The translations under genes and the position numbers were made by a program. Under the pieces are notes generated by a model. The model saw only the letters and a list, made by a program, of their open reading frames with translations, was not told the DNA's origin and ran no database searches. Shown here piece after piece: positions 1,840 to 59,295 of a DNA stretch of 64,000 nucleotides. The DNA comes from Schistocephalus solidus (Eukaryota; Platyhelminthes; Cestoda; Diphyllobothriidea; Diphyllobothriidae), in the NCBI GenBank assembly GCA_017591395.1, contig WEDG01000703.1, forward strand, positions 1 to 64,000. Direction: 5' to 3'. How positions within the stretch are numbered: position 1 is the stretch's first letter; each line of letters starts with the position of its first letter.

Positions 1840-3560
1840 TCAAAGTTTAGTTCGTTGTTTTCATCAGTGTCGACAGTATGAGAGGGCACTTAAAAAAATT
1901 AAGGATTTGTTGCGCGATATCAGTCTGCTATAACGGGGAATTCCCTAGACTACAAACGCGTTCCGCACCACAGGTTATACTGAAACTATGCACTATCCTA
2001 CCGTAATGGTGCTGCTTACACGGTGACAAAGCTATCAAGCTCAGCGCAGGTAGCATCTTGCGCTTCCTCACGTTTTGTTTTGCATCCACACCCATGTCGC
2101 TAAGCAGCCAGAAGCGGGAATTGAGGCTTTTTTATTTCATGAAATCTCCTAGATCACTTCTGCCAAATTGGCACTGAAAAAAAGTAATTTAACTGATCCC
2201 TACATCAATTGCAGATGAATAACTTAGGAATGCGTGAATAGGCAGTCATTCTGTTGGTTCAGATTGGGTGAGATTTCCTAGTTTGTAAGGCTTTGCGTCC
2301 AAATTTATCTGAAACATGGAATAATTCACGTCCCCATTCCAGATTTAATCAGCGCATGTAGATAGAGAAATGCACGACTGCAGAATTGCTTTGGCTGTCT
2401 TAGGTTCTAATGTTGACCGGTATGACCCACGTTTTCATATGTTTGTAGAACGTATATTTACAAAGGTAAACCGCGCCAAATGCCTAACCAAGCAGTTTCA
2501 TAAGAGTTTGGTTTCTTAAGAAATCATTCTGCGTAAATCGCCATATTTCATAAGCTTGATTGATATGTAATCTGTAATCAGTTGAAGTAATCGGAGTATA
2601 ACAATCATCAGTTAGTGACATAGGTGTTATTGACGGGGTTCTTCTTCAGCTTATACCTCTGCAAACGTGATTGATTTGTAGACTCGAAGCAGTGAAAGAA
2701 ATCGAAGCACTAAAATAATCATGTTTAATCCAAGTTTTTAAAAGACGGAAGACATAAGACTTAAAGGTAAATTGTGCAGAGTACACTGAGTGGCGCCCAA
2801 CAACCAGATATATATATATATAAATTGTAAAAATATTTTCTGGAATTATTAAGTGCAGAACATGGATTCAGGTGATTCGGACATGACGTTTTAGGGTAAG
2901 ACACTAAATTTCAATGAACATTTGGCTCGAAGACAATCAAACGCTGTGGAATAACCACATAATGCCCATTCTTCAAACAATTAGTACTACAAGTATTATG
3001 AATCATTTATGGCAAATACATTATACGGTACTTCCGACATAGGTACTAGTGCAAGCACCGACACGTGTTTCGCCAAAGTTTCTGCTGCTGCGTGTATTCA
3101 ACCGAAATGTTCATTGAACGAGTCTGAAACTACACGCTCCGTAGTTCAATGATGTAAGAGGTAGCATCTTCTTAAAAAGGATATCGAGCGTTCGTGTAAT
3201 TTATGGGTATCTGCTGTAGCTTACACATCCAAATGCTATTTTGCCATAAAAATTGACGTCAAAAAATTACCAAATCGCCTTTAAATCTGCTTTATTTTCG
3301 TTCAGGTGAATAAAGCTTAACTGTGCATAAAATGTCGAGTTGCCCTCGAGGATTCCTATGTTAATGAAATCAGCCATATCTGTCCCAATATTATAAAAAA
3401 ATGCAAATTTGAATTTGAGAGTATATAACTAATAAATGTTTTCCCAAAAGTATTCCGATGTTTACCTATCAATCTTTTAAGTTTTCCTGATTCGAATTTT
3501 AAAATTATACTTAGAGACTTTAAGGATTTTAAACGCCACAGTAGGTGTTGCGCGAACGCG
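1840..3560 (+). repeat. Dispersed repeat R, copy i (main part)
   Basis: Homologous along most of its length to 4,350-5,830. Shared landmarks are the GCGCTTCCTC stretch near 2,065 and 4,545, the run around CACATCCAAATGCTATTTT near 3,226 and 5,508, and the CGCCACAG.AGGTGT end near 3,535 and 5,812. A relic hammerhead repeat (2,803-3,097, minus) is inserted within it, because copy ii lacks that segment. A weaker match to 17,740-18,185 covers the stretch around 2,660-2,790. No protein is recognisable. Confidence 0.6.
2803..3097 (-). repeat. Relic of hammerhead-bearing repeat (retrozyme-like)
   Basis: On the minus strand this matches the 354-bp repeats at 53,457-54,146: the stretch near TATGTCGGAAGTAC, the ACTACAAGTA region (seen on plus) and the end next to a TA tract at 2,811-2,823. 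The 3' half of the ribozyme core, GAAACACGTGTC, is retained (complement at 3,060-3,071). The CTGANGA half and the 5' strand of stem II are missing, and the TGGG strand of stem I is changed, so it should not self-cleave. It interrupts repeat R copy i. Confidence 0.75.
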
Positions 3561-10007: not shown

Positions 10008-10286
10008 TTGCAAGAAACCCAAGAAATCTCTGCGCTGTGGTTCAAAATGAAACTTGTCTTTTATTGACCTGGAAGGCCTCCAAGATTTCTGATCGCAAAC
10101 CTGCATTGTACACGATTGTAGTAAACTCTGATAAAGAAAAAAAAAACATTACAACTTTGGAGACGTCATATGCTGTAAAGAACCTTAATTCCTCAACCAC
10201 GTACAGATTTCAAGTATTTTCAACTACCTTAGCGGGCTCTTTATATCAGCCTGGAGTCGCAACTGATGTACCAGCCTGGAATAAAG
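10008..10286 (+). CDS. FnIII exon b, intact
   Basis: The exon starts after the acceptor CACCTCTAG and ends at GTACTT (10,287). At 279 bases it is phase 1 at both ends, so it can be skipped or duplicated without changing frame. It encodes about 93 residues of one FnIII domain: NPRNLCAVVQ (strand A), LLLTWKASKISDR (strands B/C with the core tryptophan), YTIVVNS, SYAVKNLNSSTTYRFQV (strands E/F with the conserved L and Y) and GVATDVPAW (strand G). Three N-glycosylation sequons (NET, NIT, NSS) fit a secreted protein. It aligns across its whole length with exon a. The following exon, which would supply the C-terminus, was not found with confidence; two hydrophobic candidates lie in the duplicated block at 13.43 and 17.34 kb. 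Confidence 0.7.
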
Positions 10287-20291: not shown

Positions 20292-21441
20292 ATGAAACCC
20301 CAGTCAGTACTTAGACGCAAACATCCTCTTCGCGTAAAACTCCCAATAGAAATACCCACCTTAAGTCTGCAAAAATTAGACCTTGACGCCCTAAAAAACT
20401 TTAATACCTTTATGTCTAAATATGGTTCTCTCTTCACGATCCTTGGTACCATTTTTGAGGGAAAGTTGTCTTCGCTCTCTTCTCAACAATGCGTGAAACT
20501 AGAGCCTTTTCATAAATATGGTCAGTACTGAGTCACTTGACCCACATAAGAGAAGTTTCAATTTTCTTTTAAAAAACGTTCCCAAGAGTAAAATCCCCCT
20601 GGACGTTGCATTTCATTGCCTTTACTCGTGCGGCTTTAACTTTAATGTCGCTGAAGCTAAAAGGTTATCTTCCCGTAGTAAAATACCTCCTATTCTGGTC
20701 AAACTTTTTCAGCAATTGAAGTTGACCTTATTTTCTCTAGGCATGAGCTCTCAGCTCAATATTTGAGAAAAAAACAAGTGGTTTATCTGTAAGGATAAAA
20801 CCCCAATGGAACGTCGGGTTTCACCCTCATTAGCAAACAAGAAGCCTTGGTCTACACCTTCAATACCAAAAGTTGTCTCAGAGGTTTGTCCTGTAGCTAA
20901 AGCAAGCCCACGGCCCTCCGGATCGAGAGGATATTCGATTCCAGCTGAATCTTCACCCGTTAACCTTGTTTCTGGTTTGAGTGAAATTGTGTCAACTCCA
21001 CTTCTTTCTCATCCCAAGCAAACCATGCCTGCTATACCTGCCAAATCTACTAACCCTAAGAAAACTCCTAGTAAATCTTAATCTGTGGCTAATCCCGGCT
21101 TTGAAATCAGCAATGGCATTACCGATGGGAAACCTGCTAACCCCCTAGCATCTACAACAGCTGCGAACGCTAACGTTAGCATCTTTCCCAACCCAAAAAT
21201 TGTCCGAAATCCACAAATATTTAACGCTTCTTATTATGCTACCAGTTTTTCGAAATCATTTATTCCTTTTTCAAAGGCACGTTTTCCGCCAATTTTTGAT
21301 AACGTCCCTCAAAATCTCATTTCTATGCCAACCCCTATTTTTCAAACGCCACAATATAGCCTTTCCTTCCAAGGTTTTCATCCAAATATGCCTTTGTATA
21401 ATAATCTCAGTTCTCTTAACAGTAACATTTCGACAAATTGA
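20292..21441 (+). pseudogene. LINE A1 ORF1 (gag-like)
   Basis: Read through a frame shift near 20,520 and stops near 20,765 and 21,081, this gives a protein of about 380 residues. It has a basic, leucine-containing N-terminal part (MKPQSVLRRKHPLRVKLPIE...) and a long part rich in Pro, Ser, Asn and Phe (21,085-21,441). No zinc knuckle or RRM is visible. Position before the endonuclease ORF is the main reason for calling it ORF1; its usual role would be RNA binding in the retrotransposition particle. Confidence 0.55.
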
Positions 21442-22450
21442 AGACCAGATCAATTTTGTTTACCACCTTTCCTTTCTTCTTTCCAGTTTTCTTCTCCGCC
21501 ACCAAATTTTCCTTTTTTATAAATACTGATGAGCGTAACCATCCGCTCAGGAATACGCTCAGCTTAGTTTCACTCAATGCGAGGTCAGTTGTAAATAAGA
21601 TGGCTGAGCTTACAACAGTAGCCTTTGAGCTTGATCCAAACTCGACGCTTGCGATAGAAACTTTCAATTTGTACCGACAAGACCGTGCTGAAAAACGTGG
21701 CGGTGGTTGCCTCCTTTATATAAATTCATCCTTTGTACATTTCCCTTTTCATCTGAACATTTCGTCTTTTTCTGGAAATGTATGCTTTGCTTCAGTCATC
21801 CTCCCGCACAATAAAAAAGCGGTAATTGGCTTTGTCTATAATCCTCCGTGTTATTCTGGCAATGAAAGCGAGCTCTGTGAACTAGTTGAAAAAGTTGCAG
21901 ACACTCAGTTTGATGTCAAAATAATTGTAGGCGATTTAAATCTGCCAGACATTGACTGGCAGGCCAATTCCTCTCCGCCTCAACATCAGAAATTGGTCGA
22001 TACTATCAACTTTTCAAACATGTCCCAACTGGTCAGATAAGTAAATAGAAATGACAACATTTTAGATTTAATTTTTACAAATGATGTCCACCCTCTCTTT
22101 ATGAATTTTCATCATGATCTTTTCACAAGTGATCACACGATAATTCACTGTTGTTAACCAGTCCCCCTTCTTACGAAGCCAAAGGGTTAAATGCAATAAC
22201 CTCGACTTTGCTAACATAAACCATGAACCAGTAAATAATTTCGTTAGCACTCTAGATTGGCATAGCATATTCTCAATCAACGATCTTAACTTTTTCCGTG
22301 AGCTATTGCAGAGCCTCACAGAAAAAATCCAGGCTTTTATCCCGTTTAAGATTTTTAATTCAAATACAGCTTCTTCTACTGTTCCGCATTTTCTCCAGAA
22401 CACACTTAAAAAATTACGAAAGCAACTTAAAGTTTCATCTAAAAGCTCTT
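21438..22450 (+). pseudogene. LINE A1 ORF2 endonuclease domain
   Basis: The frame at 21,438-22,040 carries an apurinic-type endonuclease domain: SLNARSVVNKMAEL, then RQDRAEKRGGGCLLYI, IGFVYNPP and VGDLNLPDIDWQ. The stretch between TLAIET and FNLYRQDR looks too short; about a dozen residues normally hold the TWL..I.D segment there, so an internal deletion is likely. After a stop at 22,038 the downstream part (including the SDH histidine region near 22,130) is shifted. Nicking activity is therefore improbable. Confidence 0.7.
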
Positions 22451-22643
22451 TGTCAGTTCATTAAAGGATTGCACAAATATTTGAATTAGCATCGAGAATA
22501 AGGCTCGCGCGAGATAAGCGTAGGGAGTCTCGGGCACTAAGTGATGCCAATTCATCCAAATCTGTTGCTCAAATCTTTCATGTTCGGTCATCGGCTAAGC
22601 GTCTGAATGTAACTCCGCCCTAACTCGACTGTAACATAAAAAT

Positions 22644-23553
22644 TTGTTACAGATGATTTTGGGCAAAGCAGAATTGTTAAACTCGTTTTTTGCCAACCAC
22701 TTTACCACTGAAACTAGCCCCACTCCCACAATTCCTCTGCTTTTAAATTCGCTTCTAACAACTTTTAATTTCTCTACTTCATGTATTCAAAAAGAAAAAG
22801 CTCACCTAAAAAATTCACATTCAGTTGGAACTGATAACATTCCAAACTCACTTATTATACAGTTAAGGGATTTTCCACCTTTACTTAGCAAATTATTCTC
22901 AGAATTTCTCAAAAATGGTTTCTTCCCTGATTATTGGAAAACTTCTGTTATAATACCAGTTTTTAAATCTGGTTCCCGCTCGGACATTCATAACTATCGC
23001 GGTTTTCATAAAACGCCCTCTCTTGCTAAACTGTTCGAAAAACTAATTGCAAAAAAATTCACGGATTTTTGCATAAGCAATAAAATTATCAACCTTACCC
23101 AACATGGCTTCTTACCGGGCCGTTCTTGTGAAACCTGCCACATGTCTTTTCTTAATCTACTAACCTCTCTTCGTAATGATCATCTATCTGTAGTAGTTAT
23201 CTATTTTGATCATAGTAAGGCATTCGATAAGGTGCCTCATAAACGACTTCTAGCTAAACTAGAAGCTATAGGATTTCGTAGTCCCCTTACTGACTTTATT
23301 AGATCATACCTAAATGATCGAAAACAAAACGTTTTAGTAGGGTCCTCATACTCAAGTGCTACCCCGATTGTTAGTGGTGTCCTTCCAAGGTACCGTATTA
23401 GGTCCTTTGCTGTTCTTACTGTATATAAATGATATTTCATCGATAGTTAAACATTCTCAATCTTTTATTTATGCTGATGATATCAAATGCGTGTATTTTT
23501 TTCTCTATTTCTACAACCGAACGGTGCCTAGAACAAAATTCATTCAGACTTAG
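22644..23553 (+). pseudogene. LINE A1 reverse transcriptase core
   Basis: The 262-codon frame contains RT fingers and palm: LKNSHSVGTDNIPNSLI, FPDYWKTSVIIPVFKSGSRS, NYRGFHKTPSLAKLFEK, QHGFLPGRS and FDHSKAFDKVPHKRL (region A, with the aspartate intact). A frameshift near 23,385 disrupts the GTVLGPLLF region. The catalytic SFIYADD box lies in the next frame at about 23,464-23,484. LINE A2 is homologous throughout. Confidence 0.8.
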
Positions 23554-23585
23554 AGGCTCTTTCGGCCTGGAGCTCCACATGGCTA

Positions 23586-24197
23586 ATGGAGTTCTCACCT
23601 ACTAAGTGTCGCTACGTGAGTTTTGGGCCTGTAAGGCTGCCGCAACCTCTTATCTTTGATGGTTGCCATGTGATTGAATGTTCCTCCATCAAGGACTTGG
23701 GCTTAAGCTACACCAAAAAAATAGATCTTTCGCCTCATGCCGATAGAATTACGGCCAAAGCTGCTCAGATTTGCGGCTTTATTGCTTATAATTTCTACCT
23801 TCCTGAAATTAAATTAAGACTTTATCGTATGATTGTACTTCCCATTCTTGAATTTTGCTGTCCTTTCTTCGGTTTGATGAACGAATCTAGCCGTTCAAAA
23901 ATTGAAAATGTCCAAAGACATATCACAACAAAACTCCTATTTCCGACTCTTTCAACTACTTCCTACTCAACAAGATGCCAGCTAACGAAGCTAAAATTTC
24001 TTTGGGTCAGGAGACTTGAAGCAGGCTTTTGTCTCCTTTTTCGACTTAATAATAGTTCAACTCTCCCCAAGCTTTCTGTCATTACCCCCGTTAGTCTTCC
24101 TTATAACCTAAGAAATGCTGCACTGATTATACCTCCCCCTGCATCCTCCACGTGTAAACGCTCTCTCTTCTTTGCTTCTAGGTATAGTTTTCTTTGA
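23586..24197 (+). pseudogene. LINE A1 RT thumb and C-terminal region
   Basis: A 203-codon frame continuing the RT after the YADD box: KCRYVSFGP, IKDLGLSYTKKIDLSPHADR (the usual KDLGV block), YRMIVLPILEFCCPFFG and LWVRRLEAGFCLLFR. It aligns along its length with 35,860-36,480 of LINE A2. The remaining sequence to 24,966 is 3' UTR. Confidence 0.75.
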
Positions 24198-24966
24198 AAT
24201 AACTTGTCAATTGAAATTAGGTCGTTAACTAGTCTATCTGCATTCAAGCGAGGACTGCACATTTATCTTAACACTGATTCTAGTTACCTTTTATTTTCTT
24301 GTCTTTTCCCAGTAGCTTTCCCCATGACTCGGAGAAAGGACCATCGGAAATTTGAGTAACCCTCTTAAAACTATATTAACGCTACCTCGAGACGCACATG
24401 AACTATAATGTCTCCTTATAGCACCCGTCCTCCAAACGATGACGTCATTCGGACGTACAAATTCGGTGGTCCACAGTCTTAAATGCTGCGGTTTCTTTGG
24501 ATACTAACCATCATCAGAATTCAATTCTGGATCCTTTAATGCTGAGGACTTAAGTTCATTGACGCATTTTCGTGAGATTCTGTTTCATATGCCTAAGTGA
24601 TCAAGAACGAATCACCTTGACGTTTCATTATGTCATTCTGAAATGCTACTGCAGTTTTACCCTATTCTACCACCTGACCATTTTTTCCTAAGCAGTTTTT
24701 TTCTCCAACCTTCTATTCGATAATGAAGGCCTACTGAACTCTGCCTCCATTTTCATGGTAGAAGTTTTTTTCACTGCCTATTTTTTTCTAGTTCACCATT
24801 AATTTTAAAACATTGCTAACTGTTGACATAGCAGGACAAGTTATGAATTTGTACATCTTATCTGCACACATTGTCATAACTTTATTTCGTTACTAATGTT
24901 TGCTTAGACAGTACCTTGCCGGTGCTAACCAAATATAAATTCTACATTCTAAATAAAATTAAAAAA

Positions 24967-34470: not shown

Positions 34471-34571
34471 AAAAGCCTAGCGCCGTTCGTACCTATCATA
34501 ATTTTGACCTCGCAGATATGAGCTTAATTAACAACTTTTTGGACTCATTGGATTAGCAGCATCTCTCCTCC

Positions 34572-35801
34572 ATGAACGATGCAGCAAGTCTTTCTGACTT
34601 AATGTCAGTCGTTTCAAATAACATCCTGGAATTTGTGCCAATCAAAATTGTCAAGCCATACACTTTGGAATCCACCGTCCCCCACATTCTTTTGCCAAGA
34701 CTAACGAAATTGAGGAAGCAATTAAAAGATCAATATACTAGTTCGTTATCTGTACATCTAAGGATTACAGAGATTTTTGAATTAGCATCTAAGATTCGGC
34801 TTGCACGGGACAGACAGAGGGAATCACGCGCACTCAGCGACCTAAACTCTGCAAAATCTGTTGCTCAACTATTCCGCCGTCGATTTTGCTCTAAACGAGG
34901 TTATAAAATACCTCCATTACTTAATGAAACTATGAAATTCGTTCTCGAAGACTCTGAGAAGGCAGAATTGTTTAGTGCATTCTTTGCAAATCAGCTTACG
35001 ATGGAATCTGAACCGGTTCCGACGTTTCAGGCATCCTCATTTAATGTTATCAGTACCATTGATTTCTCCATAGAACTAATTCGTAAGCAAATAATGCGTC
35101 TGAAAAACTCGCACTCTTCGGGGACTTATGGTATTCCAAACTCAGTTATTAAGAGAGTGCCGAGCTTTCCCCGATTGCTTAGCCATGTATTCTCAGTTTA
35201 TCTTTTAAACGGATTCTTTCCTGACTCATGGAAGACATCTATTATTCTTCCTGTCTTCAAGTCGGGATCTCTTTCGGACGTGAAAAATTATCGAGGCGTT
35301 CACAAAACCCCGGCTCTTGCAAAACCTCTTGAAAAAATTATTTTTAATCAAATTCTCGACTTTTGCTTAGAAAATAAGCTCTTAAGCGACTCACAATATG
35401 GTTTTCTACCTGGGAGATCAGGCGAAGTGTGTCACTTAGCTTTTCGTAACCTCGTCACTTCCCTTCGTAATGAGCAGCAGACAGTGGTTGTGATCAACTT
35501 TGACCTGAGCAAAGCCTTTGACAAGGTACCGCACAAACGTCTTCTGGTGAAACTGGAAGCCCTCGGCATCCGGCCTCCTCTCCTTGACATCATTGGTTCC
35601 TACTTGTCTAACCGCAGCCAGAAGGTCTTAGTAGGAAATAGCAACTCGATGCCTCAACCGATCACGAGTGGCGTTTTTCAAGGCACGGTTCTAGGTCCCC
35701 TTCTCTTTATTCTGTACATAAACGAAATTTCAGCTTTACTCACAAATTCACCAAACTTTGTTTACGCTGACGATCTCAAGTGCATTTATTCATTTTTATA
35801 A
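34572..35801 (+). pseudogene. LINE A2 reverse transcriptase core
   Basis: The longest open frame in the window (409 codons). It includes RALSDLNSAKSVAQLFRRR, LKNSHSSGTYGIPNSVIK, FPDSWKTSIILPVFKSGSLS, NYRGVHKTPALAKPLEK, QYGFLPGRS, INFDLSKAFDKVPHKRLLVK (region A), TSGVFQGTVLGPLLFILYIN and the catalytic FVYADDLKC, so fingers and palm with all three carboxylates appear intact. It ends at a stop soon after the active site; the thumb continues in another frame. It starts at an internal Met because the endonuclease part upstream is broken. Confidence 0.85.
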
Positions 35802-36492
35802 AGACACTGCCAAAAGTTGCGTGGATAAAATCAACACTGATCTACTTATGCTCTCACGTTGGAGCTGTACTTGGCAGATGGAGTTTTCTTCATCCAAGAG
35901 TAGTTTTATGTGTTTTAGCCCCGCTAAGCTTCCTGGACCCCTCGTATTTCAAAATAGTACACTTTTAGAACGATCAACCATAAAAGACTTAGGTCTAAGT
36001 TACACGAACAAGCTAGCATTATCGCCTCATGCAGATCGAATTTCTGCAAAGGCTACACAGATATGTGGTTTTATATCGCACAATTTCTTCCTTCCGGAAA
36101 TAAAGTAAGACCTGTACCGAATGTTTGTTCTTCCTATTCTAGAATACTGCTGTCCCCTCTTTGGGCTGATGAATGCCTCTGACCGCAGTAAGATTGAAAA
36201 AGCTCAGAGGGTTTTTACTCGAAGACTATTTTCTCTTCCTGGATCCAGTATCTCTTATACGGATAGATGCCAGTTAGCAAACATTAAATTTCTGTGGGTT
36301 AGAAGACTCGAAGCCGGTCTCTGCTTCCTGTTTCGCGTTAACTCTAGCCCCATCTCCAGAATTAACGCTCTTACTCCGGTAGATCGACCCTATGCCACTC
36401 GTAATTCCTCCATGATCATTTCACCACCCCTTAGCTCCACAACTAACCGGTCTCAGTTTTTTTGCCTCCAAATATGCTTTCATCTGGAATAA
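35802..36492 (+). pseudogene. LINE A2 RT thumb and C-terminal region
   Basis: Two frames (35,758-36,108 and 36,121-36,492) separated by one stop codon at 36,106. Together they read SRWSCTWQMEFSSSKSSFMC, IKDLGLSYTNKLALSPHADR, FVLPILEYCCPLFG and LWVRRLEAGLCFLFR. They match A1 23,560-24,190. About 920 bases of 3' UTR follow. Confidence 0.75.
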
Positions 36493-37418
36493 TCTTCCAC
36501 TGTAATTAGGTTGTTGTCCACATTAGCTATTTTCAAAACAAAGTTACGCAAACATTTAATTCCGGAAGATATAAAGTCCTTATTGTCTGTTTCCTTCCCT
36601 AACTCGCAATTTTTGGATTTCGAAAAGGGTCCTCCTGGTATTTGAGGCAGTTTCCTTGATATTATAATGGTCTCTTATTATATATCCATCAGCCTCTGCA
36701 GAGTCCATCTTTGCATTCACTTTTTCGCCCCCTCCTTTTAAACTAGCATCGCCAAGTCTTGACAAACTTGGTACTTTCCTCCGCTTTTGCAACCCCGACG
36801 ATGGTCTCCAGGTTCAGTTGAGGATCAAGGCGGGTTCTGATAGTTTTGCTTCTTTGATTGGGGGACAATGCAGTCGGCAAGGTCGCATCTCAATGATGAT
36901 CTCCTGACCTCTACTGTTCCGTCTTCGTTTTGACCCTGGTGTCCACGATGAGTCCGTCCTCTCTCACCTCCACTGGTGGTTACAAACAGTAGCTCTGACT
37001 GCTATATTATCTCCCACACGACAAGGAGCGTTCCGAACCCTCATACGTTGTCATCATCATCACAGATCTATCCCATTGCATCTAGCTATTAATGTTTTAG
37101 TGAAGCAGTTTTTTTCTCCTATTTTTTTTAAAAATTGGCGGCTCGCCGAACTCCGCCTCCAATTTACCGTAGGAGTTTTTTTTACTGCTTCTTTTATAGT
37201 TCACGTTTATGTTAAAGATTGTTGTCTATTGTTTTAAAAATGGCAAATCGTTCTGAATCGGATATGCCTACCATAATGTTAATTTCTGCTGTTAATATGG
37301 CTGCTCACATAGAGCAGCAATTATCCACTTTGTATTTATTTATACCGCGATACTAAGTTTGAAATGACGGGGCTCTCTGGGCCTTAAATATACAATTTAT
37401 TTATTTATTTATTTAATA

Positions 37419-44478: not shown

Positions 44479-44480
44479 TA
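44406..44480. repeat. TA dinucleotide tract
   Basis: Imperfect (TA)n directly downstream of PLE1. Similar tracts sit at 41,182, 46,291, 53,352-53,443 and 54,147, always at an edge of a PLE-array or hammerhead-repeat segment. Confidence 0.9.
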
Positions 44481-46305
44481 ATAGTTGGGTGCTCAACGAT
44501 CGGTTGCAAAACTCACTTGTCCCTTTCTGCCTTGGGGCTAACTCTTAAGCCCCGCCATCAGCCGTAATGCAGCTAAGTATAAAGGCAGAATAACGTGACC
44601 GACAAGACAAGGGAGACTGGAATGGCCACTTCGGGCTTATTTGCCGTCATCAGCCAGCCATTACCAATCCAGGGAACTGCGGCGCCCGAGGCCCGAACTC
44701 GCGACCTTGTTGGGCAGAAGTCCAACGCTCTACCTTGTTGGTCAGAAGTCCATGGTGAGCAACCCATTACCATTGTCAATATTCCCGATCGAAACAGGCA
44801 AGACAACGAGCTCGTGGCGCAGTAGGTAGAGCGTTGGAATTCTGCCGAACAAGGTCGCGAGTTCGAGTCTCGGGCGCCGCAGCGCCTAATTGTGAATATG
44901 GCTGGCTGATGACGGCTAATAAGCCAGAAATGGACATTCCAGTCTCCCTTGTATTTGTCGGTCATGTTATTCTGCCTATATACTTAGCTGCCTTACGGCT
45001 GCTGGTATGGCTTGAAAGTTAGCCCAAGGCACAATGGGACGAGTCAATCCTGTAACCGATTGGTGAGCGCCCCCTTACCACTGTCAATATTCCCGATTGA
45101 AACCGGCAAGACAACGATCTCGTGGCGTAGTGGGAGGAGCGTTGGACTTCTGCCCAACAAGGTCAGGAGTTCGAGGCTCGGGCGCCGCAGCGCCTGGGTT
45201 TGGGTATGGCTGGCTGATGACGGCTAATAAGCCAGAACTGGCCATTCCAGTCTCCATTGTCTTTGTCGGTCATGTTATTCTGCCTATATACGTAGCTGCC
45301 TTACGGCTGCTGGCGGGGCGTGAGAGTTAGCCCAAGGCACAACGCGACGAGTGAGTCATGTAACCGATCGGTGAGCGCCCCATTACCATTGTCAAATATT
45401 CCCGATCGAAACCAGGCAAGACAACGAGCTCGTGGCGCGGTGGGTAGAGCGTTGGACTTCTGCCAAACAAGGTCGTGAGTTCGAGGCTTGGGCGCCGCAA
45501 CGCCTGGGTTTAGGTATGGTTGGCTGATGATGACTAATAAGCCAGAAATGGCCATTCCAGTCTCCCTTGTCTTTGTAGGTCATGTTATTCTGCCTATATA
45601 CTTAGCTGCCTTACGGCTGCTGGTGGGGCTTCAGAGTTAGCCCAAGGCACAACGCGACAAGTGAGTCATGTAACCGATCGGTGAGCGCCCCATTTTCATT
45701 GTCAATATTCCCGATCGAAACAGGCAAGACAACGAACTCGTGGCGCAGTGGGAAGAGCGTTGGACTTCTGCCCAACAAGGTCGCGAATTCGAGGCTCGGG
45801 CGCCTAAGCGCCTGGGTTTGGGTATGGCTGTCGTATGACGGCTAATAAGCCAGAAATGGCCGTTCTAGTCTCCCTTGTCTTTGTAGGTCATGTTATTCTG
45901 CCTATATACTTAGCTGCCTTACGGCTGCTGGCGGGGCTTGAGAGTTAGCCCAAGGCACAACGCGACGAGTGAGTCATGTAACCGATCGGTGAGTGCCCCA
46001 TTACCATTGTCAATATTCCCGATCGAAACCGGCAAGACAACGATCTCGTGGCGCAGTGGGTAGAGCGTTGGAATTCTGCCCAACAAGGTCGCGAGTTCAA
46101 TGGTAGGGCGCCGCAGCGCCTGGGTTTGGGTATGGCTGGCTATTTGACGGCTAATAAGCTAGAAATGGCCATTCCAGTCTCCCTCGTCTTTGTCGGTTAT
46201 GTTATTCTGCCTGCGAGGGCTCTAGTCTGAGCTCCAGCGCACAACGGAACATACATGTTCCTTAAGCAGATCGGTGAGCCCCACACTGTCATATATATAT
46301 ATATA
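44481..46305 (+). repeat. Tandem array of ~308-bp units with tRNA-like cores
   Basis: Five plus-strand units have tRNA-like cores starting at 44,814, 45,122, 45,432, 45,740 and 46,048 (spacings 308, 310, 308, 308). The array is preceded by one inverted unit (core about 44,670-44,740). Each unit also has CCGATCGAAAC upstream, GAATATGGCTGGCTGATGAC-like text and a CTGCCTTACGGCTGCTGG stretch. The array ends with an inverted-repeat stretch (GGAACATACATGTTCC, 46,244) and a TA tract. An inverted copy lies at 54,165-55,385. Confidence 0.85.
45740..45806 (+). other. tRNA-Arg-like core (representative array unit)
   Basis: Contains TGGCGCAGTGGGAAGAGCG (box A pattern), TTGGACTTCTGCCCAACAAG (anticodon-arm-like, TCT in the loop) and GGTCGCGAATTCGAGGCTCG (box B pattern). 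The box A and anticodon-arm text resembles eukaryotic tRNA-Arg(UCU) as I remember it. The acceptor stem does not close as in a functional tRNA, so I read it as a tRNA-derived promoter or SINE-like head. Equivalent cores lie at the other unit starts given for the array. Confidence 0.6.
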
Positions 46306-50239: not shown

Positions 50240-50945
50240 GGTTGGCGCAAAATTGAAGTGCTTGTATACAAATGCGCAAAGCCTTTTATCAAAACTTGAT
50301 GAGTTAAAAATTTGCCTTGCCGAAGTATCTCCGGATGTGATAGCAGTAACCGAAACCCTGGCTGTCGGGCAGTATTCTAGATAGCGAAATAACATTGTCT
50401 GGGTACCAACTATATCGGAGGGACAGAGAAAACCGACAGGGTGGTGGAATAATTGTGTATGTGAAAGACGTGCTAATAGTGTCTGACAAGACGAGCAAGT
50501 TTGCGTGCAACACTGAAGCCATATGGTTGAACATCAAGGCTCTTGGCTCTTCATGTCTAGATGTCCTCATTGTCTATCGGCCACCTAGGATAGACCGAGT
50601 CGCGGACACCCACTTGTTGGAACAATAAGAAAAGTTCTCCAGTAGACCTAATGTAATGATTATGGGTGACTTCAACGCACCAGGAATTAACTGGAGCACT
50701 GTTCAATCATCATGCCCGAAATCAACTTTTGATTATGTTTTTCTGCAAAAGACCTTGAATGCACTCCTCACACAGCATGTCCCTTTCCCCACCAGAACAC
50801 GTGAAGGACAAAGGGCTAACTGTCTTGACCTGGTTTTCACGAAAACATCAGGCAGCATTGACGAGATTATTTCAATGCCTCCGCTCGGTCGTAGTGATCA
50901 CGTGGTGCTTATTCTCCGTTGCCCCTGCTATAGACGAAAAACGGC
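50240..50945 (+). pseudogene. LINE F endonuclease domain
   Basis: Blocks over three frames: LKCLYTNAQSLLSKLDELKI, PDVIAVTETLA, then (after a stop at 50,382) YQLYRRDRENRQGGGIIVYV and VLIVYRPPRIDRVADTH, then (after a stop at 50,626) VMIMGDFNAPGINW, CLDLVFTKTSGSIDE and PPLGRSDHVVL. All usual catalytic blocks of an apurinic-type LINE endonuclease (N, E, GDFN, SDH) are present, so only stops and shifts inactivate it. Confidence 0.8.
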
Positions 50946-52300
50946 GTAACGTTTGGCGAGGAAATTTTCATCAGATGCGAGCAGATTTAACACACATCAA
51001 TTGGACCTCAATATTTTCGAGCACCGTAAACGAAGATTGGGAGTCTTTCAGAAATGTTCTTCTGCAACTTATTGACAACCACTGCCCGCTAACGAGTGTC
51101 CATCACACCAAGCGTCCTGGGTGGCTAGACAGCAACTTAAAAAGGGAAATAAACAGGAAGCACAAGTTGTGGAGAAAATATCGCGAGTCTAATCAAGTCG
51201 CCTATTTTAAATAAGTATAAAAGCACAGAGAAACAAAATGAGAAGCCTTATTCTTAAAAACGCGAAGAGAATTTGAGAAGACTTTTGCTGCAAAAGGCAA
51301 CGCAGAATCCAAAGTTAGTCTACAGTTACCTCCGTAGATGTACAAGGAATAAACATCAAATACCGCTGATTAAGCCTGCCGTGGGCGTCGAAATTTCTGA
51401 AAACAGGGAAAAAAAGCCGAGTACTTTTCACAGTTCTACCGCTCAGTCTTCACAAACGAGGCAAGGTTCCTTCGTCCCTCAGTGGATAACCCGCCGACTG
51501 CAAGCATAAGCCACATACTATTCTCAGAATTTCTGATCCAAAAGGAATTAAAAGAACTAAAAGAGTCAAAATCCCCAGGACCAGACGAGCTTCCACCCAA
51601 GCTTCTGAAAGAACTCGCCAATGAACTTTCCGCACCTTTGTCAGTGCTCTTTCAAAAGTCATTTGACTCCGGAACACTTCCTTTCGATTGGAAGCCGGCA
51701 TATATAACTCCCTTGTACAAAAGCGGTAGCCGGGCGTCAGTGACAAACTACAGGCCCATAAGCTTAACATGCATCCTTGGCAAGATTATGGAAAGGATCA
51801 TCAAGAGCGAATTGGTGAAATTCCTAGAGACTCATAATTTGTTATCAAGCTGTCAACACGGGTTCAGAAAAAGGAAGATCATGCACAACGAATTTGCTGT
51901 ATTCGATCCAGAGGTGGACCCAAGGACTTGAAGATAGACACGCGGTTCACATTGCCTTCATTGACTTTCAAAAAGGCCTTCGATACTGTGCCGCACGAGA
52001 GACTGCTTTTACAAGCTAGAAAGAATTGGAATCAGAGGTTACCTCCTCAAGTGGATCGAAAAACTTCCTCGTGGGTCGGCGCCAGGTGGTGTGCATCGGG
52101 CCAAGAGAGGTCAAGTTCTGCTGCGGTCGAGAGTGGGGTTCCTCAGGGTTCAGTACTAGGGCCAATACTGTTTTTAATATACGTGAACGATTGTGTCAGG
52201 AATCTCGACTGTGAAGCAGCAATGTTTGCCGACGACATTAAAAATCTGGAATGTAATCCAGAGCCCCTGCTGACGAAGATAAACTGCAGATCAACCTAAC
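50946..52300 (+). pseudogene. LINE F reverse transcriptase core
   Basis: Linker (HHTKRPGWLDSNLKREINRK), then RT: ELKESKSPGPDELPPKLLKE (51,553), FDWKPAYITPLYKSGSRASV, NYRPISLTCILGKIME, QHGFRKRK, a shift at 51,925, FKKAFDTVPHERLLLQ (region A), SGVPQGSVLGPILFLIYVND and the catalytic AAMFADDIK near 52,222. All RT carboxylates are present; frames change at 51,500, 51,925 and 52,295. Confidence 0.8.
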
Positions 52301-52304
52301 TCGG

Positions 52305-53052
52305 TTGGAGGAGTGGTCGAATCATTGGCTTTTGCGGTTCAACGTCGATAAGTGTACAATACTTCGCTTAGGCAACCCGTCTAGATCTGCCGAAAGTAGA
52401 AGTTACTTTCTCAACGCTGAAGCCTTAAAAGACGTGGAAACCCAAAAGGACCTTGGTTTGCTGATGACCACCACCTTAAAACCATCGTCTCACTGCTTAA
52501 AAGTGGCGAAGAGCGCAATTTCGGTGTTGCATGCCATCAGACGAGCCTTTTTGGATTTCGATGAAGATCTTTTTGCTAAGACCTTTGGAAAATTCATTAG
52601 GCCACATTTGGAATATGCTATGCACGCCTGGAAACCCTGGACAGTTCAAGATCAGAACTGCCTCGAAAGAGTCCAGAGGAAAGCCACCAAAATGGTTAGA
52701 AGTCAAAGCTCCTTGCCATATCCAACCCGCCTAATGAATCTTAATCTGTTCCCTTTTGAGTTATAGGCAAATGCGTGGTGATCTCCTGCAGACATTCCGC
52801 ATTGTGAAGGGATTGGATTGTTGCCTGGAATTCTCGGACTTCTTTGAATTTGCCACCACGACCCATCTCCGAGGTCACCCATTGAAACTGCGTGTCCAGC
52901 AGGCGAGACTGGATGTGCGCAAGTTCTCCTTCTCTGTCAGAGTGGTTAAACCATGGAATGCCCTCCCTGAAGACGTTGTGATGTCACCATCGCTGAAAAG
53001 CTTTAAAAGGAACCTTGACAGTTTTATGTTCCGCAACGAGCCTGAGCGATGA
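52305..53052 (+). pseudogene. LINE F RT thumb and C-terminal region
   Basis: Two overlapping frames (52,305-52,766 and 52,756-53,052) with one stop between them: WLLRFNVDKCTILRLGNPSR, TQKDLGLLMT, GKFIRPHLEYAMHAWKPW, LERVQRKATKMVRSQ, then YRQMRGDLLQTFRIVKGLDC and TTHLRGHPLKLRVQQARLDV. It ends at 53,050, 155 bases before the (GAATT)n end. Confidence 0.75.
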
Positions 53053-53351: not shown

Positions 53352-53380
53352 TTATATATATATATATATATATATTTGTG

Positions 53381-53443
<63 letters not shown>
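53352..53443. repeat. TA dinucleotide tracts
   Basis: Two (TA)n runs of about 20 and 60 bases between LINE F and the hammerhead repeats. Long open frames here (Ile-Tyr repeats) are low-complexity artefacts. Confidence 0.95.
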
Positions 53444-53447
<4 letters not shown>

Positions 53448-53468
53448 ATAAACCGAGTATACCAGAAA

Positions 53469-53585
53469 CCGCATAGAGAACGCTGGGGACCCACTGAGGA
53501 GCCGAACCCCTCGTTTGCTGTGTCACACAGCAGCAGAAACATCGGCGAAACACGTGTCTGGGCTTTTAACTAGTATCTATGTCGG
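53469..53585 (+). ncRNA. Type I hammerhead ribozyme, unit 1
   Basis: All core positions are present. CTGAGGA (53,494-53,500) fits CUGANGA; GAA is at 53,547-53,549 and A15.1 at 53,550. Stem II is GCCGA (53,501-505) with TCGGC (53,542-546), its loop holding a further self-paired GCTGTGT/ACACAGC. Stem III is ACAC/GTGT (53,550-553 with 53,554-557), a minimal palindromic stem. The cleavage base is C at 53,558 (GTC). Stem I is CCCA (53,490-493) with TGGG (53,559-562), then beyond an internal loop CATAGA (53,472-477) with TCTATG (53,576-581) and CCG with CGG. The short self-complementary stem III suggests cleavage mainly as a dimer, as proposed for retrozymes. Confidence 0.88.
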
Positions 53586-53822
53586 AAGTACGGTATAACG
53601 TCTTTGCCATATAAGATTCATACTACTTGTAGTACTAATTGTTTGTAGAATGGGCATTACGTGGTTATTTAACAGTGGTTGATTGTCTTCGACCCAAATG
53701 TTCATTGAAATTTCGAGTCTGACCCTAAAAAGTCATGTCCGAATGACCTGACTCCATGTCCTGCACTTAATAATTTCAGAAATTATTTACCCGATTATTC
53801 TCTGGAGTCCATATACCAGAAA

Positions 53823-53939
53823 CCGCATAGAGAACGCTGGGGGACCCACTGAGGAGCCGAACCCCTCGTTGCTGTGTCACACAGCACCAGAAACATCGGC
53901 GAAACACGTGTCTGGGCTTTTAGCTAGTATCTATGTCGG
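53823..53939 (+). ncRNA. Type I hammerhead ribozyme, unit 2
   Basis: Same structure as unit 1: CTGAGGA at 53,849-855, stem II GCCGA (53,856-860) with TCGGC (53,896-900), GAAA at 53,901-904, stem III ACAC/GTGT (53,904-911), cleavage after C 53,912, stem I CCCA (53,845-848) with TGGG (53,913-916), distal CATAGA/TCTATG. The few differences from unit 1 fall in loops (one more G before ACCCA, one fewer T and a G to C change in the stem II loop). All core bases and paired stem bases are unchanged. Confidence 0.88.
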
Positions 53940-54164
53940 AAGTACGGTATAACGTCTTTGCCATATAAGATTCATACTACTTGTAGTACTACTTGTTTGT
54001 AGAATGGGCATTGCGTGGTTATTCCACAGTGGTTGATTGTTTTGCGACCCAAATGTTAATTCAAATTTCGGGTCTGACCCTAAAAAGTCATGTCCAAATC
54101 ACCTGACTCCATCTACTGCAATTAATAATTTCAGAAATTATTTACCGATATATATATATATATA

Positions 54165-55385
54165 TGACAGTGTGGGGCTCACCGATCTGCTTAAGGAACT
54201 TGTATGTTCCGTTGTGCGCTGGAGCTCAGACTAGAGCCCTCGCAGGCAGAATAACATAACCGACAAAGACGAGGGAGACTGGAATGGCCATTTCTAGCTT
54301 ATTAGCCGTCAATAGCCAGCCATACCCAAACCCAGGCGCTGCGGCGCCCTACCATTGAACTCGCGACCTTGTTGGGCAGAATTCCAACGCTCTACCCACT
54401 GCGCCACGAGATCGTTGTCTTGCCGGTTTCGATCGGGAATATTGACAATGGTAATGGGGCGCTCACCGATCGGTTACATGACTCACTCGTCGCGTTGTGC
54501 CTTGGGCTAACTCTCAAGCCTCGCCAGCAGCCGTAAGGCAGCTAAGTACGTAGGCAGAATAACATGACCTACAAAGACAAGGGAGACTAGAACGGCCATT
54601 TCTGGCTTATTAGCCGTCATACGCCAGCCATACCCAAACCCAGGCGCTGCGGCGCCCGAGCCTCGAACTCGCGAACTTGTTGGTCAGAAGTCCAACGCTC
54701 TTCCCACTGCGCCACGAGTTCGTTGTCTTGCCTGTTTCAATCGGGAATATTGACAATGAAAATGGGGCGCTCACCGATCGGTTACATGACTCACTTGTCG
54801 CGTTGTGCCTTGGGCTAACTCTGAAGCCCCACCAGCAGCCGTAAGGCAGCTAAGTATATAGGCAGAATAACATGACCTACAAAGACAAGGGAGACTGGAA
54901 TGGCCATTTCTGGCTTATTAGTCATCAACAGCCAGCCATACCTAAACCCAGGCGTTGCGGCCCCCAAGCCTTGAACTCACGACCTTGTTTGGCAGAAGTC
55001 CAACGCTCTACCCAACGCGCCACGAGCTCGTTGTCTTGCCGGTTTCGATCGGGAATATTGACAATGGTAATGGGGCGCTCACCGATCGGTTACATGACTC
55101 ACTCGTCGCGTTGTGCCTGGGCTAACTCTCAAGCCTCGCCAGCAGCCGTAAGGCAGCTAAGTACGTAGGCAGAATAACATGACCTACAAAGACAAGGGAG
55201 ACTAGAACGGCCATTTCTGGCTTATTAGCCGTCATACGCCAGCCATACCCAAACCCAGGCGCTGCGGCGCCCGAGCCTCGAACTCCTGACCTTGTTGGGC
55301 AGAAGTCCAACGCTCCTCCCACTACGCCACGAGATCGTTGTCTTGCCGGTTTCAATTGGGAATATTGACAGTGGTAAGGGGGCGC
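54165..55385 (-). repeat. Inverted copy of the 308-bp tRNA-like array
   Basis: Minus-strand units with tRNA-like cores at 54,341-54,407, 54,649-54,715, 54,957-55,023 and 55,264-55,330 (spacing 307-308). Same palindromic start as the left array (here with GGAACTTGTATGTTCC). It joins PLE2 at 55,385 inside the GIY-YIG region; left-arm sequence equivalent to 44,030-45,065 is missing at that join. Confidence 0.85.
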
Positions 55386-56667
55386 TCGTGCATGCGCGCA
55401 CTCAGTCGTTTGTCGGTCATGCTGCAGTAGTTGGCATGGCAGTCTAGACAGTTGACACGGTAAATAACGCCTAAAGGTGTCTGCGGGTGGTAGTCGGCCC
55501 TTTGGTTGCATGACTAATCGATGGATGGTGGCCTCCGGTCGGTGTCCAACGCCCACGTTTCGCGGTCTTAACACGCGCTCAGTGGCTTCTGAGACGTTCC
55601 CCACATATGCCAAGACATGGAAGGTTTCAGGTCTTTGTTACGGGCTCACCTTCGGTCTTTGTATGCCTTTGGTATAAGCATTTGTTTATGAAGCTGCGTG
55701 GATATCCACTGGCCAGAAAGAGGCGCCATAGAGTTTAACGTTCTCGCAGCTTCTCAGCCTCTGTGCTGCAGTGTGTCGGAATGCGGCAAAAAATCGATTC
55801 GACACAACTGCGTTTATGCGACAGTGGGTGATTGCTGTTGTAGTGAAGACTTTTCTCCGTGTTTGACGCTTTTCGAAAAACGCCAGCCTGGAGAGTTTCG
55901 TCCTTCTGCCTTGATATCTGAACATCGAGAAAAAGGAAGCATTTCATCCTCTTCTTCCTCCATTGTGAATTGAATCTGTGGGAAAATCGAGTTCAAATCC
56001 CTTTTGAAGTTCTCTTTGGCTTCTCGGTGTATGATATCAAAGGTGTCGTCTTCGTAGCGCATCTAGAATTTCGGCTTGTAGATCTGGAAGACCTGAGTTT
56101 CCAGCTCCTGCAGGATGGCCTCCGCAAGGAAGCCGGAGATCGGTGATTCCATCGGGCTTCCCTGGATTTGCTCATAAACATAGTTGTTAAACGTGAAGTA
56201 CGTGCGAAGGCAGTAGTCCAGTAACTCCATTGCGTGTTCCCTTTTAAAACGTTTTCCTTCATCGTTGTACTTTCAGTCCAGAAGGTCATCGATGACTCTC
56301 ATGGCCAATTCTTCTGGGATGGATGTAAATAGGGAGACGACGTCAAAGGACACCATTATCTCGTCGGGGGCGATTGTGATACCTCGGAGTTTTTCTATGA
56401 AGTGCGTTGAGGATACGGCTGTATGTTCTGAGCCCTCTACTAGCTTCTTCAAATGCTAAGCGAGCCATTTAGCCAGTCCGTAGGTAGGCGTGCCTTTTAG
56501 CGCCACGATGGGCCGTAGAGGAACATTCGGCTTGTGGATTTTTGGCAAACCGTAGAACCGCGCTACGTCGGCATCCTGTGGTTTCATTTGTCTCCAATCG
56601 TTTTCGGATATTGCCTTTTGGCTCCGCATTAGATTCAGGTTCTAATTGATTTTTTCTACCAGTGTTT
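55386..56667 (-). pseudogene. Penelope-like element PLE2, truncated at both ends
   Basis: Minus-strand copy of PLE1 from the block at 42,749 (LVEN) to mid GIY-YIG at 44,028. It keeps FYGLPKIHK, DEIMVSFDVVSLFTSIPEEL, the LPFLDVQISR block and GNVSEATERVLRPRNV, and shares with PLE1 the stop before MRY and the stop after DDLLD. The catalytic box is MRYEDD instead of MRYVDD. Shared stops show that it was copied as DNA with PLE1 already dead. Confidence 0.85.
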
Positions 56668-56935: not shown

Positions 56936-57119
56936 TACGATGTAACCCAACTGTACAGAGCTTTAACAGTACAAAGAAGGCGCTCAAGAACTCGGATGAC
57001 GACCACTCATCAGAACTCAGCGTCGGCGGGTTGAACAACAGTTCATCTCGGAAAACAATGACAGACTCTAGTATTCAATCGCGCGAAATGCGCAGAAGTC
57101 TTTATGGAGGAGTTACTCA

Positions 57120-57810
57120 GTCTAAATTGAGATGTTTGTATACCAATGCTTAGAGTCTCCTATCGAAAGAAGATGACATCAAAGCATTAGTATCAGACCG
57201 AATCCCCGATATCGTTGCCATTACGGAAACGTGGCTCAAAGCCGAAATTGCGGATAGCGAGGTTTTGATTGATAGATACCAAATCTTTCGAAAAGACCGA
57301 GAAAATAGAAAGGGCGGAGGAGTGGCCGTATATGTTACGACAGGAATCTCGGCAGTCGAACGAGCACACTCCATGTTCCCTGAATATGAATTTATCTGGA
57401 TAAATATTAAAAAGGAGTGTTCACAGAACCTTCAATTCTTGACGATCTACACACCACCGAACATTCCAAGTGCAGCTGCTGAGTCACTCCTCCATTTGCT
57501 TAAGGAAGTAGCAAGTCACCAGGAAGTGCTTAGTGCTGGAGATTTCAATGCACCTATAGTAGACTGGGTTAATCTGACAGTTGATGGTGCACCAACTTCC
57601 TTTGGCAACAAGCTAATGTATCTCACTCTCGACCAACCTCTGGTACAGAAGGTTAACATTCCAACGAGATTTTAGAGAGAACCAGATAGCAAATTGCCTG
57701 GATTTTGTATTTACGAAGGACTTCTCTAGCATTGATGAAGTGTATTCTATTGGACCCCTCGGTAAGAGTGACCATAGTACGCTGATGTGGGATTACTCAC
57801 TTTATTCTCA
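57120..57810 (+). pseudogene. LINE B2 endonuclease domain
   Basis: LRCLYTNA then a stop, IPDIVAITETWLKAEIADSE, YQIFRKDRENRKGGGVAVYV, LTIYTPPNIPSA, VLSAGDFNAPIVDW, LVQKVNIPTR, DFVFTKDFSSIDEVY and PLGKSDHSTL. All blocks are present in order. The frame is open for 136 codons (57,265-57,675), then shifts. Confidence 0.8.
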
Positions 57811-59295
57811 GCGCCAGAATGGAATGGAATGCAAGCGAAATATATGGAAGGCTGATTTTAACGCGATGAGGAAAAAACTGATGTCTATGATATGGGATTG
57901 TTTGCTTAAAGGGAATCCAGAGGATGTCTGGCGATCATTTAAGACAGTCTCTTTCGATCTGATTGAACGCTTTTCTCCAGTGAAGGTGCAAAAAAAGAAT
58001 AGTCACCCCGCCTGGTTAACAAGAGAACTTAACAGGCAGCTTAAGAAGAATAATAAAAAATGGAAGGTATTTAGGCAAACAGTGTCAGCAGAGCATATCA
58101 AAGAATTTCGTCAACAAAGAAACGCTGTAAAAAGAATGATCCGTCAGGCAAGGAAGAACTATTAATCAAGAATTATTCAACAGGCTGAAAAATAAAGCAA
58201 AACTTTTATTCCATTATATCAATAGCCGACTAAAAAAACAAGGACCCAGTAGCAGTACTAATGGATGTGAATGGTGTTGAAGTCGTTGAACATTGCGACA
58301 AAGCCGAGTACTAAGGTCAGTTTTTGCCTCGGTTTTCACCAGAGAAACCGGAACTTCAGCTTGACCACGTCAACAGTGCTGTTATAGACGCCGGTCCAGT
58401 GCTTGAATATATACTCGTCCTGGAACCTTTCGTGGAACGAGAACTGCGAAATCTGAAAGAAGCGAAGTCATCTGGTCCGGACGATATACCGGCCAAGTTC
58501 TTAAAAGAACTGGCCAGCGAATTGTCAAAACCACTAGCGCATATATTTAATTCGTCATTTGAATCAGGAAAACTGCCATCCGAATGGAAGGCAGCAAATA
58601 TATACCCCATATACAAGAGTGGTGCTCGATCTAATGTCAACAATTATCGGCCTGTCAGCCTAACCTCCATTTGCTGTAAAATAATGGAATCAATAATCAA
58701 GAAGGCAACCATAAAGTTCCTTGAGGAAAACCAATTACTCTCAGTTCTCCAGCATGGCTTCAGACAGAATCGCTACAGTCTTTCTAGTTTATTTCTCTCC
58801 ACAGACCAGTGGACTCGTGCACTGGATGAAAATGGTAGGGTTGACGTCATATACACTGATTTCAAGAAGGCGTTTGGCAGTGTCCCACACAAACTTCTCA
58901 TCTACAAATTATCTGAAATTGGCATAAGAGGAATGCTGCTGACATGGATCGCAGACTTTCGTACAGATAGATTGCAAACTGTGTGCGTCGATACCTCGAA
59001 GTCAACACCTACTCCGGTTCTAAGTGGTGTCCTCCAAGGCTCGGTATTAGGGCAGTTACTCTTCTAAGTGTACATCAACGACTGTGTCGACGACCTGGAT
59101 TGCAGCGCCATCATGTTTGCAGATGATGTTAAATTGTGGAGGGTCATCAGATGTGATTTCGATAGGCACGCACTTCAAGAGGATCTCAACCGTCTTAGCA
59201 GCTGGTCTGCTCGTTGGCTCTTAAATTTTAACGTTGGGAAGTGTGTGGTCCTAAGACTACGTACAAGAAGGACCAGTGAGGAGGATGATTCCTAG
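57740..59295 (+). pseudogene. LINE B2 reverse transcriptase
   Basis: Linker frame 57,740-58,165 (KKNSHPAWLTRELNRQLKKN), then the 247-codon RT frame 58,324-59,067: ELRNLKEAKSSGPDDIPAKF, WKAANIYPIYKSGARSNVNN, YRPVSLTSICCK, QHGFRQNR, YTDFKKAFGSVPHKLLIYKL (region A; the usual FDSVP is FGSVP) and VLSGVLQGSVLGQLLF. A TAA (59,065) interrupts before VYINDCVDDLDCSAIMFADD (catalytic box intact) in the frame 59,068-59,295. Confidence 0.85.

Follow-up and report, generated by a model that had tools for sequence, protein, structure and literature searches.

In the stretch of Schistocephalus solidus DNA analysed here (the window; 64,000 nt), two direct repeats with the sequence of a hammerhead ribozyme lie between tracts of TA. 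This locus raises the question of whether the pair is a copy of a flatworm retrozyme and, if so, which machinery brought it into the TA repeats. Direct-repeat comparison of the region 53458-54149 identified two head-to-tail units, repeated every 354-355 nt and sharing about 94% identity (mutual difference, 5.6%), with starts at 53458 and 53812 (Table 1). The tandem pair of the original prediction, with a complete type I hammerhead in each unit and TA tracts on both sides, was confirmed by sequence. With its length of 354 nt and G+C content of 42-43%, the unit fits the range given for retrozymes (150-450 bp, G+C under 50%, multiple copies). No open reading frame of at least 120 amino acids was found in 53457-54146, indicating that the 354-nt element is not in itself an autonomous Penelope element. 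No tRNA match was detected by Rfam in 53400-54180 up to an E-value of 10, and the 64-kb window contained no tRNA gene. The second, older copy in the window is followed beyond its 3' end by a TA tract (2808-2822), and its head bears a short inverted piece (unit 227-270).

Table 1. Positions in the window of the retrozyme units, their hammerheads and start sites, the TA tracts and the neighbouring 308-nt arrays
Feature	Position	Strand	Remark
Retrozyme unit a	53458..53811	+	354 nt; direct-repeat comparison
Retrozyme unit b	53812..54149	+	338-type 3' end, CCGAT then ATATAT
Type I hammerhead, unit a, with distal stem I	53458..53597	+	predicted cleavage after 53558
Type I hammerhead, unit b	53812..53951	+	predicted cleavage after 53912
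Unit positions 149-156 (GCCATATA)	53606..53613	+	start site 156 elsewhere, internal here
Unit positions 329-338 (start site 338)	53786..53795	+	internal in unit a; 3' end of unit b
Left TA tracts, two runs	53353..53443	.	14 bases between tract and unit a
Right TA tract	54148..54165	.	at 3' end of pair
Second, older copy	2831..3094	-	unit positions 67/68-331, 88% identical
308-nt tandem arrays	44480-46290	+	weakly tRNA-like
308-nt tandem arrays	54166-55387	-	weakly tRNA-like

All parts of the claimed ribozyme were present in the sequence of each unit: the proximal stem I (CCCA/UGGG), the core CUGAGGA, a stem II of five pairs (GCCGA/UCGGC), GAA and C17, together with the palindrome ACAC/GUGU as stem III and a distal stem I, in which CCG-CAUAG pairs with CUAUG-U-CGG and then UAUACC with GGUAUA. 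The stem-II loop of unit a is 36 nt long and contains its own 7-bp hairpin. C17 was located at 53558 in unit a and at 53912 in unit b, in agreement with the claimed spacing of 354 bases, and cleavage is predicted at 53558/53559 and 53912/53913. The proposed check against the type I covariance model gave a divided result: RF00163 aligned both units in register, but its scores, 22.7 and 22.8 bits (E 0.007), stayed below the cut-off of 34, and nothing across the 64-kb window reached the curated cut-offs of Rfam. A hammerhead descriptor gave three matches in the window, i.e. units a and b and one copy within a 308-nt array; 40 dinucleotide-shuffled versions of the window, scanned on both strands, yielded no match. 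The genome-wide search with RF00163 yielded no match at E<=1e-3 among the 73 of 91,055 candidates scored; control genomes were equally empty, and thus no inference was drawn from this search. The exact hammerhead pattern was found in none of the viral contigs.

Folding of the single units gave z-scores of -1.6 and -2.8. For unit a, distal stem I and stem II were strongly predicted (0.78-1.0), proximal stem I was weak (0.34-0.53) and stem III was nearly never formed (0.01), the full hammerhead being 11 kcal/mol above the minimum. Since the four pairs of the palindromic stem III are impossible within one molecule without a loop, the predicted self-cleavage may require two units side by side. In amphibian retrozymes, cleavage was reported with two units in this arrangement (PMC7229834, in part).

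The genome search that the original prediction had called for (604 Mb in 8,019 contigs) identified a high-copy family: the 24-base catalytic strand was detected in 7,895 copies with up to two mismatches (none for the reversed control), and the exact unit junction occurred 5,677 times (control, 0). The 168 full units from 40 loci deviated on average by 2.9% from the majority sequence, and pairwise differences were 3.7% within arrays and 5.4% between arrays. Sequence conservation of the ribozyme was determined for 334 hammerhead regions of 78 loci, 280 of them distinct. Among these 280, the core was intact in 224, and the core together with proximal stem I, stem II and stem III in 157. The level of substitution was 2.4% for the core, 1.4-2.9% for the stems, 2.7% for unpaired positions and 5.3% for the extra hairpin in the stem-II loop; the copies look like decaying insertions. 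As to selection on the fold, broken pairs over the 280 copies were about as frequent as in column shuffles for all the hammerhead stems (37 versus 38.6 for distal stem I, and equal or higher for the others). The stem-II-loop hairpin alone showed fewer broken pairs than the shuffles (48 versus 64.9), mainly through one pair with 31 double changes, which may represent a single event through G-U. The claim that differences between units fall in loops was thus valid for the ribozyme of the window pair, where all four places of difference lie outside the named stems and core, but over the 280 copies of the family it did not extend to a sign of selection on the fold. Taken with the type I hammerhead sequence, the short tandem units, the lack of a long open reading frame and the tapeworm host, the dispersed high-copy arrays support the original reading, and the 354-nt repeat family is best regarded as a flatworm retrozyme.

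The ends of the arrays were then compared in two sets of loci. Set 1 consisted of 39 places around the best matches plus the window pair (40 loci), selected without TA in the query, three of the places being taken in the longer version only. Set 2 comprised the older window copy itself and 37 places around matches to it (38 loci); the query for this set held a TA tract, so that the set-2 counts of TA and of 338-type ends are biased. Boundaries were counted only for loci with at least 60 nt of flank, giving 59 left and 59 right ends from the 78 loci. The 3' boundaries were found to be fixed: 43 of 59 fell exactly at unit position 156 (15 ends) or 338 (28 ends, with the set-2 bias), and those within 10 nt of either position amounted to 18/26 in set 1 (p=1e-11) and 30/32 in the biased set 2. 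The 5' starts of plus-oriented arrays were scattered, with only 1 of 40 near 156 or 338; seven of the starts coincided with unit position 1, which may partly reflect the beginning of the reference unit.

A TA run of at least 8 bases was observed within 40 nt of 49 of the 59 3' ends (with the set-2 bias) and 31 of the 59 left ends, the remaining 28 left ends being free of TA; the background was 69/2,600 for outer flank positions and 18/5,000 for window positions. For the 49 loci with both ends visible, TA was present on both sides in 23, on the 3' side only in 18, on the left only in 4 and on neither side in 4. Genome-wide, exact 156-type ends followed by TA were detected 782 times (control, 2) and exact 338-type ends followed by TA 555 times (control, 0). 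Target duplications, which in retrozymes exceed 4 bp when present, were detected as long duplications extending into the TA tract in two of the 49 loci (190 nt at 93% and 133 nt at 98%); the other loci had none outside TA or were not decidable. The combination of variable 5' ends with 3' ends that are fixed at a single type of target is the hallmark of target-primed reverse transcription.

Complete inserts reached 5,729 nt, or about 16 units, and continued through the predicted cleavage site; one further array consisted of 20 matched pieces, with its left end outside the sequence seen. The length of these inserts indicates that the template would be circular or an uncut multimer. A linear cleaved monomer was rejected as the template, as only 1 of 40 5' starts lay within 5 nt of the cleavage site and the inserts cross it.

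The choice of the start sites was examined with the heptamer CCATATA, of which each unit has two copies, one at 150-156 and one spanning the unit junction; the junction copy belongs to distal stem I of the hammerhead. Genome-wide, heptamers with a TA run directly behind them numbered 782 at 150-156 versus 3 at the junction (junction background, 2). Microhomology as the sole cause of the start sites was therefore rejected, and the unequal usage of an identical heptamer indicates that start-site choice needs more than complementarity to a TA primer. RNA structure or a bound protein would then decide the start site.

Copies in both orientations were present at 23 of the 78 loci (5/40 in set 1 and 18/38 in set 2). 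Mostly, an inverted partial copy on the left was joined head to head, and the 21 such joins showed overlaps or gaps between -24 and +44 nt. In 14 of 19 cases, the inverted part had its outer end no more than 10 nt away from 156 or 338. Among the fetched loci typed at both ends, 8 of 11 carried one end of each type (156 and 338), and at the three loci with like ends (L062, L077, L078) the left outer sequence was non-canonical. The pairing of ends was also tested for outward-facing neighbours within 6 kb, using the first 100 places per end type on contigs C5-C667 (182 of 1,337 ends). Among the ends listed, 19 of 19 pairs were unlike (expected, 49.5%; p=1.6e-6), with no equal case in 20,000 label shuffles; two of these pairs (C31 and C116) are also among the fetched loci (L027 and L082). 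For this compared part of the genome (C5-C667), the one-of-each rule holds. Beyond C667, where only 338 ends were listed, there were two outward 338/338 pairs, one on C679 (1,286 nt apart) and one on C682 (642 nt apart), and with these included 19 of 21 pairs were unlike among the ends listed (p=9e-5). An AT-rich target and head-to-head copies with different end points, the features looked for in a Penelope-like element, were thus both observed. Snap-back self-priming of one cDNA would be expected to give like ends, and was rejected because mostly unlike ends were found; the unlike-end tendency fits dual-strand priming better than self-priming.

Altogether these observations are best explained by a retrozyme copied, probably from RNA circles, into TA repeats by Penelope-like machinery, a reading to which we assign a probability of roughly 70%. 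The family would be a non-autonomous retroelement of about 354 nt, of the metazoan retrozyme kind. Its tandem-copy transcripts would cut themselves at each hammerhead and then be closed into circles, as documented for retrozymes in other animals (PMC7229834, in part). A reverse transcriptase, most likely supplied by Penelope-like elements, would cut (TA)n DNA, and the cut ends would prime on the RNA at the two fixed internal sites, 156 and 338. Copying would cross the cleavage site repeatedly and halt at variable points, leaving 5'-truncated tandem arrays. Where both target strands were used, one strand would as a rule prime at 156 and its partner at 338, and the resulting cDNAs would join head to head.

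The Penelope machinery is favoured because the Penelope-style AT target, the internal starts and the head-to-head ends all match. The Penelope enzyme of Anolis cleaves both strands of AT-rich DNA, extends each of them and initiates at internal sites, the 'tail' being the stretch between two start sites (PMC11167929). For the head-to-head arrangement of Penelope copies in Adineta, which in one case includes a tail at one of the inverted ends, the authors proposed self-priming, and Penelope is said to prefer simple AT-rich targets (PMC3846280, in part). Penelope elements are abundant in related tapeworms (PMC8166898, in part). A GIY-YIG profile search of the S. solidus genome gave at least five matches over the cut-off among the 150 of 1,471 candidates scored, all weak (28.5-30.1 bits) and two with stops. 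In the Anolis study the two strands showed no difference in start site (PMC11167929), and therefore the one-of-each rule is not simply the Anolis behaviour. We tentatively suggest, at somewhat less than even odds, which the two 338/338 pairs on C679 and C682 have lowered, a circle with two dedicated primer sites, one for each strand of the cut TA tract, on which a Penelope ribonucleoprotein would carry out an ordered, asymmetric dual-strand target-primed reverse transcription.

The same retrozyme could have been moved by a LINE enzyme of the CR1, RTE or L1-like type with preference for TA tracts, the inverted heads then being the product of ordinary twin priming, which is known to generate such heads. 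LINE reverse transcriptases with an apurinic-type endonuclease are indeed present in the window, and AT-rich microsatellites are common near LINE 3' ends (PMC8969392, in part). Twin priming by a LINE predicts no dedicated outer end of the inverted part, and the clustering of 14 of 19 such ends at 156 or 338, together with an unlike-ends rule resembling the Penelope tail, makes this origin unlikely. The pseudo-LTRs of Penelope elements, too, bear type I hammerheads and are arranged in tandem (PMC7761336, in part; PMC11167929), and the ends of the retrozyme copies are of the same kind as Penelope ends; the 354-nt unit might accordingly be an internally deleted Penelope element reduced to its pseudo-LTR, rather than an independent family. 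The absence of any coding trace in the unit, as judged by open reading frames of at least 120 amino acids, argues against this derivation, which we hold to be rather improbable. Spread as satellite DNA via unequal exchange and extrachromosomal circles, with the hammerhead as a relic, would account for the tandem arrays, for the smaller difference within than between arrays and for a fold energy not in favour of the hammerhead. It is contradicted by the many dispersed small arrays with fixed 3' ends and scattered 5' starts, by the TA targets and by the head-to-head copies, and we consider it most improbable.

The neighbouring arrays of 308 nt, described in the original prediction as Penelope-derived, gave no support to that description; they are weakly tRNA-like, with scores of 15.8 and 20.3 bits for the tRNA model, whose cut-off is 29. 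Read in the tRNA sense, the majority sequence of the 308-nt unit contains a core resembling that of a hammerhead, CUGAUGA ... GAA, together with three short stems, and the copy accepted by the descriptor is located at 44906; no hammerhead was reported by Rfam in these arrays, and a competing hairpin, CUGGCU/AGCCAG, is possible. Matches to the 3' motif of this unit ran into TA repeats in 10 of 33 cases. The array at 44480-46290 is flanked by TA on either side, and its head carries a piece in inverted orientation. The 308-nt array may be a second, Sm-alpha-like retrozyme using the same machinery. At 44699-44860, sub-threshold microRNA matches (mir-927 and mir-2513) stem from the place where two 308-nt copies meet in inverted orientation; Rfam matches to microRNA and pestivirus families were set aside as TA-rich or palindromic sequence. 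Elsewhere in the window, LINE remnants with domains of reverse transcriptase and apurinic-type endonuclease were found at 21000-24200, 34500-36500, 50700-52800 and 57100-59100, and the one searched was close to tapeworm proteins. An exon-like open reading frame of fibronectin type at 9926-10423 matched a receptor tyrosine phosphatase of Schistocephalus solidus (98% over 28% of the query for one record, and 70% over 55% for another). Over its first 24 kb the window has a G+C content of 36-39%; for the last 24 kb, which are rich in repeats, the value is 43-48%.

Penelope-like elements have been called a strong candidate for moving animal retrozymes (PMC7229834, in part). Within one genome, hundreds of insertions of the present family have their exact start sites and their target in common and tend strongly to one end of each type, and the question of the mobilising enzyme is thereby turned into a defined test, with two RNA positions, one DNA target and one expected product. 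If true, the reading with two landing sites on the RNA would identify the enzyme that mobilises an animal retrozyme, and would make dual-strand priming, rather than self-priming, the favoured origin of head-to-head copies in the Penelope style. Among titles and abstract openings of the open-licence literature, we found no Schistocephalus hammerhead, no targeting of TA tracts by retrozymes and no unlike ends. The integration rule, with its fixed ends, TA target and unlike head-to-head ends, is a new observation in a known kind of element.

The classical flatworm hammerhead is that of Sm-alpha (PMC2770079, in part). The present family resembles Sm-alpha and Sj-alpha of schistosomes in being a high-copy flatworm element with a hammerhead; Sm-alpha is tRNA-related (PMC2770079, in part), whereas the region 53400-54180 is without a tRNA match, and it is the 308-nt arrays that stand closer to Sm-alpha. 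With the metazoan non-LTR retrozymes (PMC7229834, in part) it shares the type I hammerhead, short low-GC tandem units, varied array lengths and high copy number, and differs in the stem-II loop of about 36 nt with its 7-bp hairpin and in the long distal stem I. Platyhelminth retrozymes are treated in one sentence of the text consulted from that source, and the fixed start sites, the TA target and the unlike head-to-head ends of the tapeworm family are absent from the same text (PMC7229834, in part). The likeness to Penelope-like elements (PMC11167929; PMC3846280, in part) includes the type I hammerhead, tandem or partial-tandem copies, the AT-rich target, two internal start sites and head-to-head inverted ends with a tail on one. 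Unlike Penelope, the tapeworm unit carries no open reading frame, and the spacing of its start sites is 182 nt (172 when measured along the other arc of the circle), compared with a tail of 30-40 nt.
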